Positions 2,481 to 49,236 of a stretch of 64,000 nucleotides of DNA are shown here, one piece after another (the stretch's first letter is position 1; each line of letters begins with the position of its first letter). The stretch is taken from assembly GCA_017483605.1 (NCBI GenBank), contig JAFUWG010000022.1:1-64000 (forward strand). Reading direction: 5' to 3'. The stretch is from Bacteroidaceae bacterium (lineage in GTDB: Bacteria; Bacteroidota; Bacteroidia; Bacteroidales; Bacteroidaceae). The position numbers were made by a program, and so were the translations under genes. A model generated the notes under the pieces. That model was not told where the DNA came from. It searched no databases and saw only the letters and a list, made by a program, of their open reading frames with translations.

Positions 2481-3725
2481 TTAGGGCCTCACCTGCCCAT
2501 TTCCCTCAATCACCCATTTGTACGTCGTGATTTCCTCGAGAGCCATAGGACCTCGGGCATGAAGTTTTTGTGTGGAGATGCCGATTTCTGCACCAAGCCC
2601 GAATTGTGCTCCGTCGGTGAACGAAGTCGGAGCGTTGTGATAGACACAGGCGGCATCTATTTGCCTCAGGAATTGGTCAGCCGTGGTGCGGTTCTCTGTG
2701 ATGATGCACTCCGAGTGCCCTGACCCGAAACGGCGGATGTGGCGAATGGCTTCCTCTGCCGATGCAACCGTCTTGACAGCCATCGTATAAGACAGAAATT
2801 CAGTGCCGTAACTCTCTTCCGTCGCAGGGCGAAGCAGTTCGGTAGGGTAGTGCCCTTCGAGCGCCGCCAACGCTGGCTCGTCTGCATAAATCAACACCTT
2901 GCTTGTTTGGAGCGGAGCACAAAGGGTGGGGAGGTCGGCGAGGCGGTCAGCGTGGATGAGCATACAATCCAGTGCGTTGCACACGCTCACACGCCGCGTC
3001 TTGGCATTATTGATGATGCGAGCCCCTTTCTCCGTGTCGCCATCCTTGTCGAAATAAGCGTGACACACACCGGCTCCCGTCTCGATGACAGGCACCGAAG
3101 CCTCTTGCCGCACAAAGTCAATCAGTCGTTTGCTGCCGCGGGGAATCACCAGGTCCACCCATCCGTTGGCATGAAGCAATGCACCCGTAGCCTCGTGGGT
3201 GGCAGGCAGCAGTTCGATGGCATTTTCATTCACCCCGAACTCTTTCAGCACCGACTTGATCAGCCCCACAATGGCACGGTTGCTCTCGTCGGCATCCTTT
3301 CCGCCTTTCAGCACACACGCACTTCCTGCCTTCAGACAGAGGGCGAAGACATCAAACGTCACGTTCGGCCGTGCCTCATACACGATGCCAATCACACCAA
3401 AAGGCACGCTCACCCGCTTCAACTCCAATCCATTCGGCAACGTGCTTTGTTTCAGCACTTTGCCCAGTGGAGAAGGCAATTCCGCCACCTTCTTGGTGTC
3501 ACCCGCAATCCCCTCGATGCGTTCGGGCGTCAGTTTCAGACGGTCATACAGCGGGTTCGTCGGCTCCATGCGACTAAGGTCTTTGGCATTGGCTGCCAAG
3601 ATGGAGTCCGTCTCTGCAATGGCCCTGTCAGCCACTGCCAGCAATATCTGATGGATGGTCTCATTGTCGAGGATAGCAAGGTCGAGGCTTGCCTCCTTCA
3701 CCTTCTGAAAAGTCTCTTCTAACAT
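2481..3725 (-). CDS. proA: Gamma-glutamyl phosphate reductase
   Basis: Second step of proline synthesis: NADPH-dependent reduction of glutamyl-5-phosphate to glutamate semialdehyde, which cyclises to pyrroline-5-carboxylate (P5C). The 414-aa length matches the family. Aldehyde-dehydrogenase-like features are visible: the [16 protein letters not shown] block near residue 110, the [12 protein letters not shown] block, and the catalytic cysteine in SVCNALD. The start overlaps the end of proB by 7 bp (3719-3725), showing translational coupling. No proC is present in the window. Confidence 0.96.
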
Positions 3726-4483: not shown

Positions 4484-4494
4484 TTCTCTAATTT

Positions 4495-4564
4495 ATAATG
4501 TATAATTCATAATGTATAATAACCATGCGGCATGTAGGAGTACCTATTATCAATTATACATTAT
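4495..4564. repeat. AT-rich inverted repeat between activase and proB
   Basis: ATAATGTATAATT at 4495-4507 is repeated inverted at 4552-4564 (13 bp perfect), with another partial direct copy near 4509-4520. It fills the 97-nt gap between the activase gene and proB. It has no GC-rich stem or T-run, so it is not an obvious terminator. Confidence 0.6.
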
Positions 4565-4580
4565 TTATTATATATTGTTA

Positions 4581-5486
4581 TTATCCTCCAATCTTTGCCT
4601 CCAAGCCATGCTCTTTCATGATGCCCAGCGCATGTTGCTGCACCTCCTCCGACGGGGCGTCCATCTTGTACGCTTCGGGGTTGTACTCCGTGCCCAGACG
4701 TGCATGTTTCCCTTTCCCCACATCGTGATACACCAGCAGGTTGACCATCTCCGGTTTCTTTGGCAACGAAGCCAAAAATGCAGCCGAAGCCGTCAGGTTT
4801 TCATCGTCGGTGTTCACCCCCACAATCAGCGGAATACGAATCCAGAACCTGTGCCCCAACTCGCTGATGAGCCGTATGTTCTCCAGAATCTGCTCGTTCC
4901 TCACCCGTGTGTAGTGTCGGTGCTTCTCGCTGTCCATCATCTTCAAGTCCACCAGCATCAACTCGCATCGCTCCGCCACCCGTCTCACCTGCTCAGCCGA
5001 GGCAAACAGCGTCGTGTCCACCGTCCTGTGAAATCCTCTTCTGCCCAGTTCCTCCAGCACTTCACACAGGTAATCCGTGTGCATCAACGGCTCGCCGCCA
5101 CACATGGTCACGCCGCCGCCACTCTCTTCCATCACCTGCCGTTCCTTCTCCACCACCTGCATCAACTCCTCCATCTTCCACTCCTTTCCTGCCATCTCCA
5201 ACGCCAGGGTGGGGCATTCGTCCGTACACTTTCCGCAAGCCGTGCAATGCCCCAAGTCCTTGATGCCATCCGCCGTCAGCACCAAGTTCTTCTCCGGACA
5301 CACCTCCACACAACTCCGACATCCAATGCACTTCTTCTTCGTGTACATCTTCACCGCCCCTTCCGACAGCCCCTCCGGATTATGACACCACACACACCGC
5401 AATGGGCAACCCTTCATGAAGATAGTCGTCCGGATGCCAGGCCCATCATTGATGGCAAACCTTTTGATGTCAAAAATCAGTGCCAT
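4581..5486 (-). CDS. Glycyl-radical-enzyme activase (radical SAM), likely for HypD
   Basis: Uses S-adenosylmethionine and a reduced 4Fe-4S cluster to place the glycyl radical on a partner enzyme. The 301-aa protein starts MALIFDIKRFAINDGPGIRT, has the radical SAM triad C27, C31, C34 (GCPLRCVWC), and an inserted pair of ferredoxin-type clusters (C53, C56, C59, C63 and C81, C84, C87, C91), the layout of glycerol dehydratase and HypD activases. I moved the start to 5486: upstream codons overlap the promoter box at 5513-5520 and look non-conserved. The only glycyl radical enzyme in the window is HypD at 46798. Position upstream of proBA fits a partner that makes P5C, but the pairing is inference. 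Confidence 0.9.
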   Translation of the reverse strand: MALIFDIKRFAINDGPGIRTTIFMKGCPLRCVWCHNPEGLSEGAVKMYTKKKCIGCRSCVEVCPEKNLVLTADGIKDLGHCTACGKCTDECPTLALEMAGKEWKMEELMQVVEKERQVMEESGGGVTMCGGEPLMHTDYLCEVLEELGRRGFHRTVDTTLFASAEQVRRVAERCELMLVDLKMMDSEKHRHYTRVRNEQILENIRLISELGHRFWIRIPLIVGVNTDDENLTASAAFLASLPKKPEMVNLLVYHDVGKGKHARLGTEYNPEAYKMDAPSEEVQQHALGIMKEHGLEAKIGG

Positions 5487-5512: not shown

Positions 5513-5520
5513 CAAAGTTA
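5513..5520 (-). promoter_or_regulatory. Activase-proBA promoter -7 box
   Basis: TAACTTTG on the minus strand, 26 nt upstream of the chosen activase start. A weak TTG lies about 22 nt further upstream. It supports the 5486 start, because the longer frame would begin before the promoter. Confidence 0.6.
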
Positions 5521-44843: not shown

Positions 44844-44904
44844 GGTCTGAGTCACACCGCCCGAGTGGTGTGACTCAGACCGCCTTGGTGGTGTGACTCA
44901 GACC
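44844..44904. repeat. Three-unit 23-bp-period repeat, first unit inverted
   Basis: GGTCTGAGTCACACC at 44844-44858 is followed by its inverse GGTGTGACTCAGACC at 44867-44881 and 44890-44904. Start-to-start spacing is 23 bp each time. The outer arms extend to a 21-bp perfect match (AAAAGTGG.../...CCACTTTT). It lies between the terminator at 44755 and the POT gene promoter. Confidence 0.88.
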
Positions 44905-44949
44905 ACTTTTGGGGGTATTTGTGTCTTGTCGAAAAAAGGACGATTTTGT

Positions 44950-44980
44950 TTTGTGGGTTGTGCTTTTTGTGTTATCTTTG
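44950..44980 (+). promoter_or_regulatory. Promoter of the POT transporter gene
   Basis: TTTG (44950-44953) and TATCTTTG (44973-44980) with a 19-nt spacer, 35 nt before the ATG at 45016. Confidence 0.75.
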
Positions 44981-45015
44981 CAGATAATTGGTTCCCCAAA
45001 AAGAAAGGAGAAAAG

Positions 45016-46434
45016 ATGGAAAGGCATCCGAAAGGGCTTTATCTGCTGTTTGCCACGGAGATGGCGGAGCGGTTTTCGTATTACGGCATGAGGGCGGTGT
45101 TCACGCTCTACATGGTGGCGGCTCTCTTCACGATGGAGGGGGCGAGCGAGGTGTATGGCTACTACACGGGGCTGGTGTATCTGACGCCGCTGCTGGGTGG
45201 CTGGGTGGCTGACCGCTACTGGGGCAACCGGCGGAGCATCATTGTGGGTGGATTGCTGATGGCGTTGGGGCAGGGGCTGCTGTTTCTGAGTGCCTGTGTG
45301 GTGCGTCCTGCCATCCACGAGGCGGAGGGGGCGATTGACCCTGCGGTGGACAATGGGATGGCGGTGGCATTGATGGTGGGGGGATTGTTTTTCTTGGTGC
45401 TGGGCAATGGCTTTTTCAAACCGAACATCGCGACGATGGTGGGGCGTTTGTATCGTCCGGATGACAAGCGGAAGGATGCAGCGTTCACTATCTTCTATAT
45501 GGGTGTGAATGTGGGTGCGACGTTGGGGCCGCTGGTGTGTGGTGTGTTTGAGGGCGACTGGATGAATCCGACGCGGTTCAGGTGGGCGTTTCTGTGTGCG
45601 GCGGTGGTGATGCTGGTGGCGACGGGTGTGTTCGCTTGGTTGAAGAACAGATATATCGTGACGCATGAGGGGGTGCCTGTGGGCACGGAGCCGACGCATC
45701 ATGAGAAAGCGGCGAAACATCAGTTGTCGGCGAAGGAGAAGCAGCACATTGCTGTGGTGTTCATCATTGCGGTGTTTGTCGTCTTCTTCTGGGCGGCATA
45801 CGAGCAGGCGGGCGTGTCGCTGACGTATTTTGCTGACCAGCAGACGGATAGGCACATCTTCGGGTGGGAGATGCCGACGAGTTATTTCCAGTCGTTTCCT
45901 GCGGTGTTTGTGGTGCTGCTGGCTCCTGTGATGTCGCTGTTGTGGGATGTGCTGGGTAGGTGGGGGCACGAGCCTTCGTCGCCGATGAAGCAGGCGATGG
46001 GTCTGGGGCTGCTGTCGTTGGGGTATCTGTTCATCGCTCAGGGGGTGAAGGATGTGGAGCCGGGCATGAAGGTGAGCATGTGGTGGCTGACGGGCTTGTA
46101 CTTCATCCACACGTTGGGCGAGTTGAGCCTGTCGCCGATAGGTTTGTCGCTGGTGAGCAAGTTGTCGCCGAAGCATCTGGCGAGCCTGATGATGGGTGTG
46201 TGGTTCTTGTCGTCGGCGGTGAGCAACATGCTGGCGGGGCAGTTGGCGACGTTGTATCCTGACGGGTCGCCGAAGTCGCTATTGGGCTTCTCCATCGATT
46301 CGCTGGAGGACTTCTTCATGGTGTTTGTGGTGATGTCGGGTGTGGCTGCTGTGGCGTTGGCGTGTATGACGCCTGTGTTGAAAAGGATGATGAGAGATGA
46401 GCGTGAAAAAAAGGAAGTGAAAAGTGAAGAGTGA
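45016..46434 (+). CDS. POT-family proton-coupled peptide transporter
   Basis: A 472-aa inner-membrane importer of di- and tripeptides. The family motif E15-x2-E18-R19 (EMAERFSYYG) in helix 1 couples proton and peptide; GGWVADRYWGNRRSI is the major-facilitator loop motif, and NGFFKPNIATMVG is conserved. About 12-14 hydrophobic helices are visible. The start at 45016 is favoured because the promoter lies upstream of it and the longer frame would start before the promoter. Its stop codon lies inside the left arm of the inverted repeat at 46415-46512. It could carry peptides released by the nearby peptidases into the cytoplasm. Confidence 0.92.
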   Translation: MERHPKGLYLLFATEMAERFSYYGMRAVFTLYMVAALFTMEGASEVYGYYTGLVYLTPLLGGWVADRYWGNRRSIIVGGLLMALGQGLLFLSACVVRPAIHEAEGAIDPAVDNGMAVALMVGGLFFLVLGNGFFKPNIATMVGRLYRPDDKRKDAAFTIFYMGVNVGATLGPLVCGVFEGDWMNPTRFRWAFLCAAVVMLVATGVFAWLKNRYIVTHEGVPVGTEPTHHEKAAKHQLSAKEKQHIAVVFIIAVFVVFFWAAYEQAGVSLTYFADQQTDRHIFGWEMPTSYFQSFPAVFVVLLAPVMSLLWDVLGRWGHEPSSPMKQAMGLGLLSLGYLFIAQGVKDVEPGMKVSMWWLTGLYFIHTLGELSLSPIGLSLVSKLSPKHLASLMMGVWFLSSAVSNMLAGQLATLYPDGSPKSLLGFSIDSLEDFFMVFVVMSGVAAVALACMTPVLKRMMRDEREKKEVKSEE

Positions 46435-46540: not shown

Positions 46541-46548
46541 TACCTTTG
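46541..46548 (+). promoter_or_regulatory. Promoter of the small ORF-hypD operon
   Basis: TACCTTTG, 37 nt before the small ORF start chosen at 46586 and about 250 nt before hypD. Confidence 0.7.
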
Positions 46549-46585: not shown

Positions 46586-46777
46586 ATGAATCCAGAGATT
46601 GACATGATTAAGTGGTGGTCGGCACTGAGCATCGATAACAAGGTGAAGGTGTCGGGCAAGACCTATCCTGAATGCTCCGTATGGTGGAACAATCTGACCA
46701 TCGAGGAGAAGTTGGCTACGAAGGAGGCTTCGGGCATCGAACGTGCCAAGAGGAACAAGACGAAAGGATTTACGTAA
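46586..46777 (+). CDS. Small protein upstream of hypD, unknown
   Basis: A 63-residue frame with paired tryptophans (IKWWSALS and VWWNNLTIEEK) and a basic end (ERAKRNKTKGF). I do not recognise a family. It begins 37 nt after a good promoter and stops 20 nt before hypD, so it is likely co-transcribed and possibly coupled. A start at an upstream Met (46553) would coincide with the predicted transcription start. No membrane or metal motif is visible. It could equally be a translated leader. Confidence 0.6.
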   Translation: MNPEIDMIKWWSALSIDNKVKVSGKTYPECSVWWNNLTIEEKLATKEASGIERAKRNKTKGFT

Positions 46778-46797: not shown

Positions 46798-49236
46798 ATG
46801 GAAACTACGGTCGCTATGCGTGCTCCGCATAGCAAAATGAATTACGCCCTTAAATATCCAGAGAATGAGGGTGGCATGAATGAACGTGTGAAGCGGCTGC
46901 ATCAGCAGAGCATCGACACGCCGACAACGCTGACGATTGAGCGTGCACTGATTGAGACGGCGTTCTACAAGGAGAACTACGGCAAGATGCCGAACTGCAT
47001 CTTGCGTGCCCGCAACTTCTACGAGATATGTAAGAAGAAGACTATATATATAGGTAAAGACGAACTGATTGTGGGCGAACGCGGTCCCGTGCCCAAGGCG
47101 GTGCCGACATTCCCCGAACTGACGTGCCACACGGTGGAAGACCTCCACACGCTCGACACACGCGAGTTGCAGCCCTACCACATCAGTCAGGAGGACATCG
47201 ACACGTATGCCCGCGAGGTTATCCCATACTGGGAGGGCAGGACACAGCGTGAGCGCATCTTCAGCCATGTGAGCAAGGAGTGGGAAGAGGCTTACCATGC
47301 AGGTGTGTTCACAGAGTTTATGGAGCAGCGTGCAGGTGGTCACACGGCGATGGACGGCAAGATGTATCATCGTGGCTTGCTCGACTGCAAGGCACTCATT
47401 GCCAAGACGCTCTCGGAACTGGACTTCATCAACGACCCAGAGGCGACGGATAAGCAGCAGGAACTGCAGGCAATGGGCATCAGTTGCGACGCGGCGATTC
47501 TGTTTGCTGAACGTCATGCGGAATTGGCAGAGAAGATGGCGGCAGAGGAGACGAACCTTCAGCGAAAGGAAGAACTGCTGAAGATTGCCGACGTGTGCCG
47601 TTGGGTGCCAGCCCATGCACCAAGGGACATGCAGGAGGCGATTCAGATGTACTGGTTTGTGCATCTGGGCACGGTGACGGAACTGAACGGATGGGACTGC
47701 ATGAACCCAGGACACATCGACCAGCACCTGTATCCTTTCTACAAGAAGGGGCTGGAAGATGGCACCATGACCCGCGAGAAGGCGAAGGAACTCATCAGTT
47801 GCTTCTGGATTAAGTTCAACAACCAGCCGGCACCTCCGAAGGTGGGCATCACGGCATTGGAGAGCGGCACTTACAACGACTTCACCAACATCAACATCGG
47901 CGGCATCGACCGCGAGGGAAAGAACGCCGTGAACGAACTGTCGTACATCATCCTCGAAATTCAAGAGGAACTGCACGAGTTGCAGCCCGGCCTCTCCATC
48001 CATGTGAGCAAGGTGACACCCGACGAGTTTGTGATGGCAGGAGCGAAGGTGATTCGTCAGGGTCACGGCTACCCATCGGTTTTCAATCCCGACACCTACA
48101 CGAAGGAACTGATGCGTCAGGGCAAGACGCAGGAGGATGCCAACGAAGGTGGCTGCTCGGGCTGCATCGAGGTGGGTGCGTTCGGCAAGGAGGCATACAT
48201 CTTGACGGGCTATCTGAACACGCCGAAGATTCTGGAAATCACGCTCAACAACGGCATCGACCCAATGACGGGCAAGAAACTCGGACTGGAGACGGGCGAC
48301 CCTCGCACCTTCACCTCCTACGAGCAACTCTACGATGCTTATCACCAGCAGATGCTGTATTTCGTCAACATGAAACTGGCGGTGAACAACTACATCGAGC
48401 GTATGTTCTCGCTCTATGCCCCTGCCACGTTCCTGTCGCTCTTCATCGACGACTGCATCACTCGTGGACGCGACTACTACAGCGGCGGTGCACGATACAA
48501 CACCACATATATACAATGTACAGGACTCGGCACCATCACCGACTGCCTCTCGACGCTGAAGAAGCATGTGTTTGAGGACAAGAAGTTCACGATGGACGAA
48601 CTGCTCAAGGCTGTCAGCAAGAACTTTGAAGGGAACGAGAAGATGCGCCAGTTCATCATGAACCGCACCCCATTCTTCGGCAATGATGACGAATATGCCG
48701 ACACAATTGCCGTGAAGGTTTACGACGACCTTGTGGATGCCATCGAAGGACATCCCAACACGCGTGGCGGCAAGACCCAACTGAACATGCTCTCGACGAC
48801 TTGCCACAACTACTTCGGTTCGGTGTGTGGTGCATCGGTGAACGGACGCCTGGCACACTTCGCCATCAGCGACGGAACCTCGCCCGCTCACGGAGCCGAC
48901 ACGAACGGCCCAACAGCGGTCATCAAGTCGCTGGGCAAACTCGACCAGACGAAATCGGGCGGCACACTGCTGAATGTGCGCTTTGTGCCCTCGCTCCTGA
49001 AACGCGACGAAGACCTGAAGAAACTGGTGTGTCTCATCCGTGCCTACTTCTCAATGGGCGGTCACCACATCCAGTTCAATATCGTGGATACCCAGACCCT
49101 GCTCGACGCTCAGAAACAGCCCGATGACTACAAAGACCTGCTCGTCCGCGTGGCTGGCTACTCCGACTACTTCAACGACATGACCGAACAGTTGCAGAAC
49201 GAAATCATCGCACGAACGGAGAACGAGGAGTTTTAA
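46798..49236 (+). CDS. hypD: trans-4-hydroxy-L-proline dehydratase (glycyl radical enzyme)
   Basis: Removes water from trans-4-hydroxy-L-proline to give (S)-pyrroline-5-carboxylate. Residues known from Clostridioides difficile HypD, recalled from the literature, all occur here with a constant offset of 22: H182, D300, F362, thiyl C456 and E458 (GGCSGCIEVG), Y472, T667 and radical G787 (RVAGYSDYF). This separates it from pyruvate formate-lyase and diol dehydratases. The frame is 812 codons; the conserved part starts near M27 (MNERVKRL), so the start may be 46837 or 46876. Requires an activase; the candidate is at 4581-5486. Not to be confused with hydrogenase-maturation HypD. Confidence 0.95.
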   Translation: METTVAMRAPHSKMNYALKYPENEGGMNERVKRLHQQSIDTPTTLTIERALIETAFYKENYGKMPNCILRARNFYEICKKKTIYIGKDELIVGERGPVPKAVPTFPELTCHTVEDLHTLDTRELQPYHISQEDIDTYAREVIPYWEGRTQRERIFSHVSKEWEEAYHAGVFTEFMEQRAGGHTAMDGKMYHRGLLDCKALIAKTLSELDFINDPEATDKQQELQAMGISCDAAILFAERHAELAEKMAAEETNLQRKEELLKIADVCRWVPAHAPRDMQEAIQMYWFVHLGTVTELNGWDCMNPGHIDQHLYPFYKKGLEDGTMTREKAKELISCFWIKFNNQPAPPKVGITALESGTYNDFTNINIGGIDREGKNAVNELSYIILEIQEELHELQPGLSIHVSKVTPDEFVMAGAKVIRQGHGYPSVFNPDTYTKELMRQGKTQEDANEGGCSGCIEVGAFGKEAYILTGYLNTPKILEITLNNGIDPMTGKKLGLETGDPRTFTSYEQLYDAYHQQMLYFVNMKLAVNNYIERMFSLYAPATFLSLFIDDCITRGRDYYSGGARYNTTYIQCTGLGTITDCLSTLKKHVFEDKKFTMDELLKAVSKNFEGNEKMRQFIMNRTPFFGNDDEYADTIAVKVYDDLVDAIEGHPNTRGGKTQLNMLSTTCHNYFGSVCGASVNGRLAHFAISDGTSPAHGADTNGPTAVIKSLGKLDQTKSGGTLLNVRFVPSLLKRDEDLKKLVCLIRAYFSMGGHHIQFNIVDTQTLLDAQKQPDDYKDLLVRVAGYSDYFNDMTEQLQNEIIARTENEEF
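46813..46833 (+). promoter_or_regulatory. Hairpin at the 5' end of hypD
   Basis: GCTATGCG (46813-46820) pairs perfectly with CGCATAGC (46826-46833) around a 5-nt loop. If hypD starts at the ATG at 46837, the hairpin ends 3 nt before the start codon and could affect translation; if it starts at 46798, it lies within codons 6-12. Confidence 0.55.

Follow-up and report, generated by a model that had tools for sequence, protein, structure and literature searches.

In the enzyme families concerned, the activase needs SAM to generate the glycyl radical of HypD. Hydroxyproline is converted by HypD to P5C, the same compound that ProBA makes from glutamate and that ProC turns into proline. PMC7077986 describes HypD as one of the glycyl radical enzymes of highest abundance in the gut microbiome of healthy humans. 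No account of the control of HypD in Bacteroidota was found in the literature searched.

Three described systems come closest to the locus reported here. The hypE-hypD-(proC) clusters of clostridia, as in Clostridioides difficile, contain the same enzyme pair, their P5C product likewise feeds proline synthesis, and the HypD active-site residues checked are identical. Among the best 80 of 523 confirmed relatives, which are mostly clostridial loci, the activase gene is directly upstream of hypD in 70 (68 by a script rule and two that slightly overlap the hypD frame), while in another 2 it lies further upstream; in 8, four of them with an upstream stretch shorter than 1 kb, it was not found. proC lies within the flanks of 28 of these best 80, in agreement with the preliminary description, which had placed the clostridial activase gene next to hypD and proC; proA or proB was found within the flanks of none. 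In the locus reported here, by contrast, the activase gene precedes proBA and hypD is elsewhere. The second system comprises the hypD-hypE pairs of Bacteroidota, for example that of Parabacteroides distasonis. Their activases belong to the same clade, and the order of hypD followed by the activase gene is the one found in the genus studied here wherever the two genes are together. Outside this genus a link to proBA was seen in 0 of 28 listed order-level loci (flanks of up to 1.5 kb) and in 0 of 17 same-family loci, the latter count being centred on hypD, so that the activases of genomes G120 and G186, which lie elsewhere, fall outside the regions read. The third system is the proBA operon, which has the overlapping proB-proA pair in common with this locus; here a radical SAM activase gene is added in front.

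The window, the whole 64,000-nt stretch of Bacteroidaceae DNA that was analysed, carries the features collected in Table 1. On sequence evidence, the reading that we regard as probable is that the activase gene encodes the activase of HypD and heads a transcription unit made up of activase, proB and proA, from which hypD was separated by an inversion. The activase frame comprises 301 aa from its ATG, the listed ORF of 376 aa having an upstream GTG. It contains the radical SAM motif CPLRCVWC and two ferredoxin-type CxxCxxCxxxC clusters, and its Pfam matches are Radical_SAM and Fer4. The CxxxCxxC motif together with two ferredoxin clusters is what is expected of HypE, although some HypD-linked activases have no clusters. 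A gene position next to hypD, also expected of HypE, is found in relatives; in the window the two genes are 41 kb apart. ProB scores 247 bits on NCBIfam TIGR01027 (cut-off 186) and ProA 526 bits on NF001221 (cut-off 289), and their genes are adjacent and co-directional, as in a proBA operon. The motifs and the Pfam and NCBIfam matches confirm what had been read from the sequence at the outset, namely a radical SAM activase with two ferredoxin clusters followed on the same strand by proB and proA. The activase is under purifying selection, with dN/dS values of 0.070 against genome G015 and 0.048 against G034, both rough since dS exceeds 1. The spacing between the activase gene and proB is 97 nt. 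Within this gap (4484-4580) an AT-rich inverted and direct repeat, AATGTATAAT / ATTATACATT, was spotted by eye; the matching gap of several relatives consists of a few bases only. Seven HypD-adjacent activases from this and other genera (L027, L029, L042, L049, L052, L055 and L056) are 276-278 aa long, and neither CxxCxxCxxxC motif was found in them.

Table 1. Positions of the genes, promoter-like boxes and putative breakpoint regions in the window
Feature	Position	Strand	Basis or remark
proA, glutamate-5-semialdehyde dehydrogenase	2481..3725	-	NCBIfam; 7-nt overlap with proB
proB, glutamate 5-kinase, 254 aa	3719..4483	-	Pfam (AA_kinase domain only); NCBIfam
Predicted HypD activase (radical SAM activase of HypE type for a glycyl radical enzyme), 301 aa	4581..5486	-	Profile matches, motifs, tree
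Bacteroidetes-type -7 box TAACTTTG	5513..5520	-	26 nt before activase ATG; consensus match
Putative left inversion breakpoint region, activase promoter box to AraC-type regulator gene	5521..6267		Gene order
POT-family (PF00854) transporter	44893..46434	+	Adjoins hypD in several relatives, upstream of it
Bacteroidetes-type -7 box TACCTTTG	46541..46548	+	Upstream of 63-aa ORF and hypD; consensus match
Conserved 63-aa ORF, 20 nt upstream of hypD	46586..46777	+	Conserved; found in 15 of 45 genus genomes
HypD	46798..49236	+	NF043068, active-site residues
Putative right inversion breakpoint region, hypD stop to pectate lyase gene	49237..49277		Gene order

The positions of hypD, the activase gene and proB were compared in 45 genomes of the genus, which together contain 43 copies of the activase gene. 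In four more divergent genomes (G004, G005, G033 and G039), whose HypD is 82-83% identical, a different, shorter activase adjoins hypD; proB is on another contig in three of them, which are those where it was found. The other 39 copies are of the window type. In 37 of these 39, the activase gene precedes proB on the same strand at a distance of no more than 200 bp, the exceptions being G003, where the genes are 974 bp apart with a gene between them, and G025, where they are divergent. hypD, on the other hand, is less than 1 kb upstream of the activase gene in only 17 copies (within 200 bp in 9, at 200-1000 bp in 8). Among the remaining 22, it is on the same strand at a distance of more than 1 kb in 7, on the same contig but the opposite strand in 2 (the window and G025) and on another contig in 12, some of these near contig ends and not all of them proven separations; in one genome hypD was not found. 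The usual order in the genus is hypD, activase, proB, proA, and it is very likely that the ancestor of its main part, the four divergent genomes aside, had these genes in one cluster. Genome G041 (99% complete) yielded neither hypD nor the activase gene, and there proBA has remained next to pssA and psd.

The position of the activase gene next to proBA on the same strand, noted at first for the window, is thus that of a conserved unit. The proposal of a split hydroxyproline-to-proline system fared less uniformly. It holds for the window, where hypD is 41 kb from the activase gene, yet the window is not a lone case, and most of the genus keeps the activase gene before proBA, often with hypD near. 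The enzymes and the pathway themselves are already known. No description of a linkage of the activase gene to proBA that is kept while hypD moves was found in the literature searched, and an earlier report may exist. Between hypD and the activase gene, five loci (L018, L019, L020, L022 and L023) have an msrA-like gene; Pfam PMSR confirmed the copy of L019. Genome G023 (99% complete) has two activase-proB-proA units (L030 and L031) on different contigs.

Promoter-like boxes were sought with TAnnTTTG, which we take to be the Bacteroidetes -7 consensus. One precedes the activase gene of the window, with no clear -33 element by eye at the usual spacing, and another lies upstream of hypD. A box is present within 100 nt upstream of the activase gene in 15 of the 21 copies (of 39) whose upstream region was examined; 0.91 would be expected from shuffled sequences. 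By comparison, it occurs in 1 of 14 activase-proB gaps of at least 8 nt, the other seven regions having shorter gaps or, in G025, divergent genes. The preliminary description had seen no promoter before proB, and this is borne out, as the 97-nt gap of the window contains no TAnnTTTG box. Since there is a box before the activase gene and none before proB, co-transcription of the activase gene with proBA is likely, and the size of the gap and the conservation of the gene order are compatible with it. hypD and activase-proBA seem to form two separate transcription units, a layout that would explain why the separation of hypD is tolerated. Six of the 21 upstream regions are without a box. In two of them (L019 and L020) the msrA-like gene ends directly before the activase gene, which may therefore be read from hypD-msrA, and a longer transcript is possible in all five loci where this gene intervenes. 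Rfam gave two tRNAs only over the whole window, and hence no known leader RNA before activase-proBA or the hypD unit.

A mechanism can be proposed from this arrangement. The activase would put the glycyl radical on HypD, and HypD, expressed from its own promoter-like box 41 kb away, would once activated make P5C from hydroxyproline. ProBA would supply P5C from glutamate, and ProC, encoded elsewhere in the genome, would reduce P5C to proline. ProC is present on another contig, where its frame is open over 259 aa (its domain match runs over one TGA). A PutA-like protein of 1123 residues, which combines a proline dehydrogenase domain and an aldehyde dehydrogenase domain, could convert P5C to glutamate. 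An activase carried on the proBA transcript would be available when proline is being made, and HypD activation may in this way follow proline demand. Under the strongest form of this proposal, the activase is a control point: HypD is made inactive from its own promoter and is switched on only with the proline-gene transcript, so that the two sources of P5C run together. We advance this form tentatively and consider it rather doubtful.

Capture of a promoter would explain the linkage about as well as a response to proline demand, and is a serious possibility though it falls somewhat short of an even chance. The activase gene would have come to lie before proBA and its promoter would have become that of proBA, locking the linkage and leaving hypD free to move, with no regulatory meaning for HypD. 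The distribution of boxes, common before the activase gene and nearly absent from the activase-proB gaps, is in favour of such a history, as is the wide variation of the hypD-activase distance beside a short and steady activase-proB distance. G041 bears on both sides: its proBA is preceded by a box that starts 72 nt before proB, where neither hypD nor the activase gene was found, and this same box shows that proBA can have one without an activase gene. The linkage is also breakable, as the inserted gene of G003 and the divergent genes of G025 show. The promoter lock is thus not absolute. A reversed flux through ProBA as an energy-yielding route for hydroxyproline was also considered, and no evidence for it was found.

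In a genus that keeps the activase gene at proBA while hypD moves, the making of HypD is separate from its switching on, and the question of whether bacteria control a glycyl radical enzyme by way of its activase becomes accessible to experiment. The gene order kept across most of the genus may couple hydroxyproline use to the demand for proline. It also provides gene-context evidence that hydroxyproline feeds proline synthesis in these Bacteroidota, beside a possible PutA-type route to glutamate.

The distance between hypD and the activase gene in the window can be traced by comparison with G034. Turned to the orientation of the window, the genes of G034 run psd, pssA, proA, proB, activase, hypD, POT transporter and serine dehydratase, followed by thioredoxin reductase-like, DsbD-like and HerA-like genes, pectate lyase, DUF3467 and rpsL; G031 has the same order from the activase gene onward. 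In the window the outer genes are in place, the block that runs from hypD as far as the HerA-like gene is turned round, in gene order as well as in strand, and carbohydrate-use genes have been added. One inversion with breakpoints between the activase gene and hypD and beside the pectate lyase gene would explain the order of the window. Most simply, an inversion of about 43 kb would have separated hypD and left the activase gene with proBA. The neighbouring block was read in 12 genomes, 10 of which show its genes. In 9 of these 10 (G006, G007, G008, G016, G024, G029, G031, G034 and G043) it has the orientation of G034 relative to the activase gene, whose position in G006, G029 and G043 was taken from a separate reading of the locus. 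In G012 it has the orientation of the window, yet hypD is on the side of the activase gene, 5.1 kb away on the same strand. This gene order points to more than one rearrangement of the region, whose history may be longer.

An artefact of assembly, the living strain having hypD beside the activase gene as its relatives do, is an improbable source of the 41-kb split. The split in this species is seen on one contig of one assembly, and the closest relative by HypD identity (G015, 98%) has the two genes 1.9 kb apart on one strand. Against this, the order of the window has coherent flanks on both sides, and hypD is distant elsewhere too: of the 42 rows with both genes, 7 have it on the same strand at a distance of more than 1 kb, 2 (the window included) on the opposite strand and 12 on another contig, where contig ends may mislead. 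In G120, from another genus, about 89 kb of one contig separates the two genes, and in G186 they are on different contigs. Split hypD-activase pairs are not confined to the genus of the window.

The pairing of this activase with HypD is strongly supported by sequence comparisons. HypD, the sole glycyl radical enzyme (GRE) first noticed in the window, is also the only PFL-type GRE found in the whole assembly (3.06 Mb, 81.5% complete), which gave one PFL-like, one Gly_radical and one full-length activase match. The next activase-like match, above its own cut-off, is the NrdG of a separate anaerobic ribonucleotide reductase. With the assembly at this level of completeness, another GRE could be missing. 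In a sample of 161 genomes of the family, HypD was found in 31 (E ≤1e-180) and the activase in 29 (E ≤1e-60), all 29 within the 31; 0 of the 130 genomes that lack HypD at this threshold have the activase. The two genomes with HypD and no activase at threshold have related genes nearby. In G057, whose HypD is 53% identical, a 34% identical activase-like gene lies 3.7 kb upstream, and in G166 a 44% identical activase gene lies 485 bp downstream of hypD. In a sample of 393 genomes of the order, the activase (E ≤1e-75) occurs in at least 29, the window genome included, a lower bound with up to six candidates scored per genome. In 27 of the 28 other order-level loci listed, hypD precedes the activase gene on the same strand with about 320 bp or less between them; in the sole exception the activase gene starts at base 676 of a 3.3-kb contig. 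In P. distasonis an annotated hypD is followed after 3 nt by an activase gene of the same type.

On the HypE model NF043069 (cut-off 425 bits) the window activase scores 318 bits, below the cut-off; the hypD-adjacent activase of P. distasonis scores 321 and thus misses it as well, compared with 448 for that of C. difficile. In a tree of 39 rows, 32 HypD-linked activases of Bacteroidota, Bacillota, Fusobacteriota and further phyla, that of the window among them, separate from the remaining 7 with a support of 97/97. This support depends on the choice of rows, the tree being a subset without E. coli PflA, YjjW, the activase-like row of G057, L150, four truncated rows and most of the clostridial and genus rows. 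The GREs beside the 7 comparison activases score 526-641 bits on the HypD model NF043068 (cut-off 1100), so none of them is HypD by this model. A tree of 79 rows, which has very long E. coli branches and joined long branches together, gave no resolution of the deep order between Bacteroidota or clostridial HypE and other activases. Phylogenetic comparison with HypE thus places the activase with HypD-linked ones in the smaller tree only. Together with co-occurrence and the adjacency of the two genes across the order, the smaller tree backs the partnership suggested in the preliminary description. That the activase serves another GRE absent from the incomplete assembly is very improbable: its score below the curated HypE cut-off and the incompleteness of the assembly would allow it, but the activase was found in none of the 130 HypD-less genomes of the family sample and the 45 genus genomes gave no GRE except HypD at E 1e-90 with a HypD query, a threshold that would miss a true PFL.

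HypD itself scores 1156.7 bits on NF043068. All 14 active-site positions checked are identical to those of C. difficile HypD, among them His160, which we take to be an active-site position of that enzyme. Twelve others (Phe152, Arg156, Trp277, Asp278, Lys326, Ser334, Asp339, Phe340, Cys434, Tyr450, Thr645 and Gly765) are named in PMC7077986; Glu436 was deduced from the CXE motif given there, and Asp292 was left out of the check, falling on a Phe in the numbering used. The 63-aa ORF upstream of hypD has no match in a Pfam search and a dN/dS of 0.04-0.07. It occurs in 15 of the 45 genus genomes, at most about 140 bp before hypD in 8 and on a contig other than that of hypD in 7. The POT transporter may import hydroxyproline peptides.

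The hypD genes of relatives in more than one genus carry in-frame inserts near two fixed sites, after residues 250-254 and 612-613 of the window HypD, which has none. The inserts of L022, L023, L025, L033 and L072 are tandem 7-bp CAACTGT-type repeats, those of L037, L045, L050 and L053 are GC-rich palindrome-like stretches, and L024, L048, L057, L076 and L077 have inserts near these sites too. The inserts recall the palindromic elements of Rickettsia. Two hypD matches (G017:C36:13237-15633 and G029:C37:200470-202902) each count one internal stop, TGA and TAA respectively, and are possibly decayed genes or matches that overrun the end of the gene.
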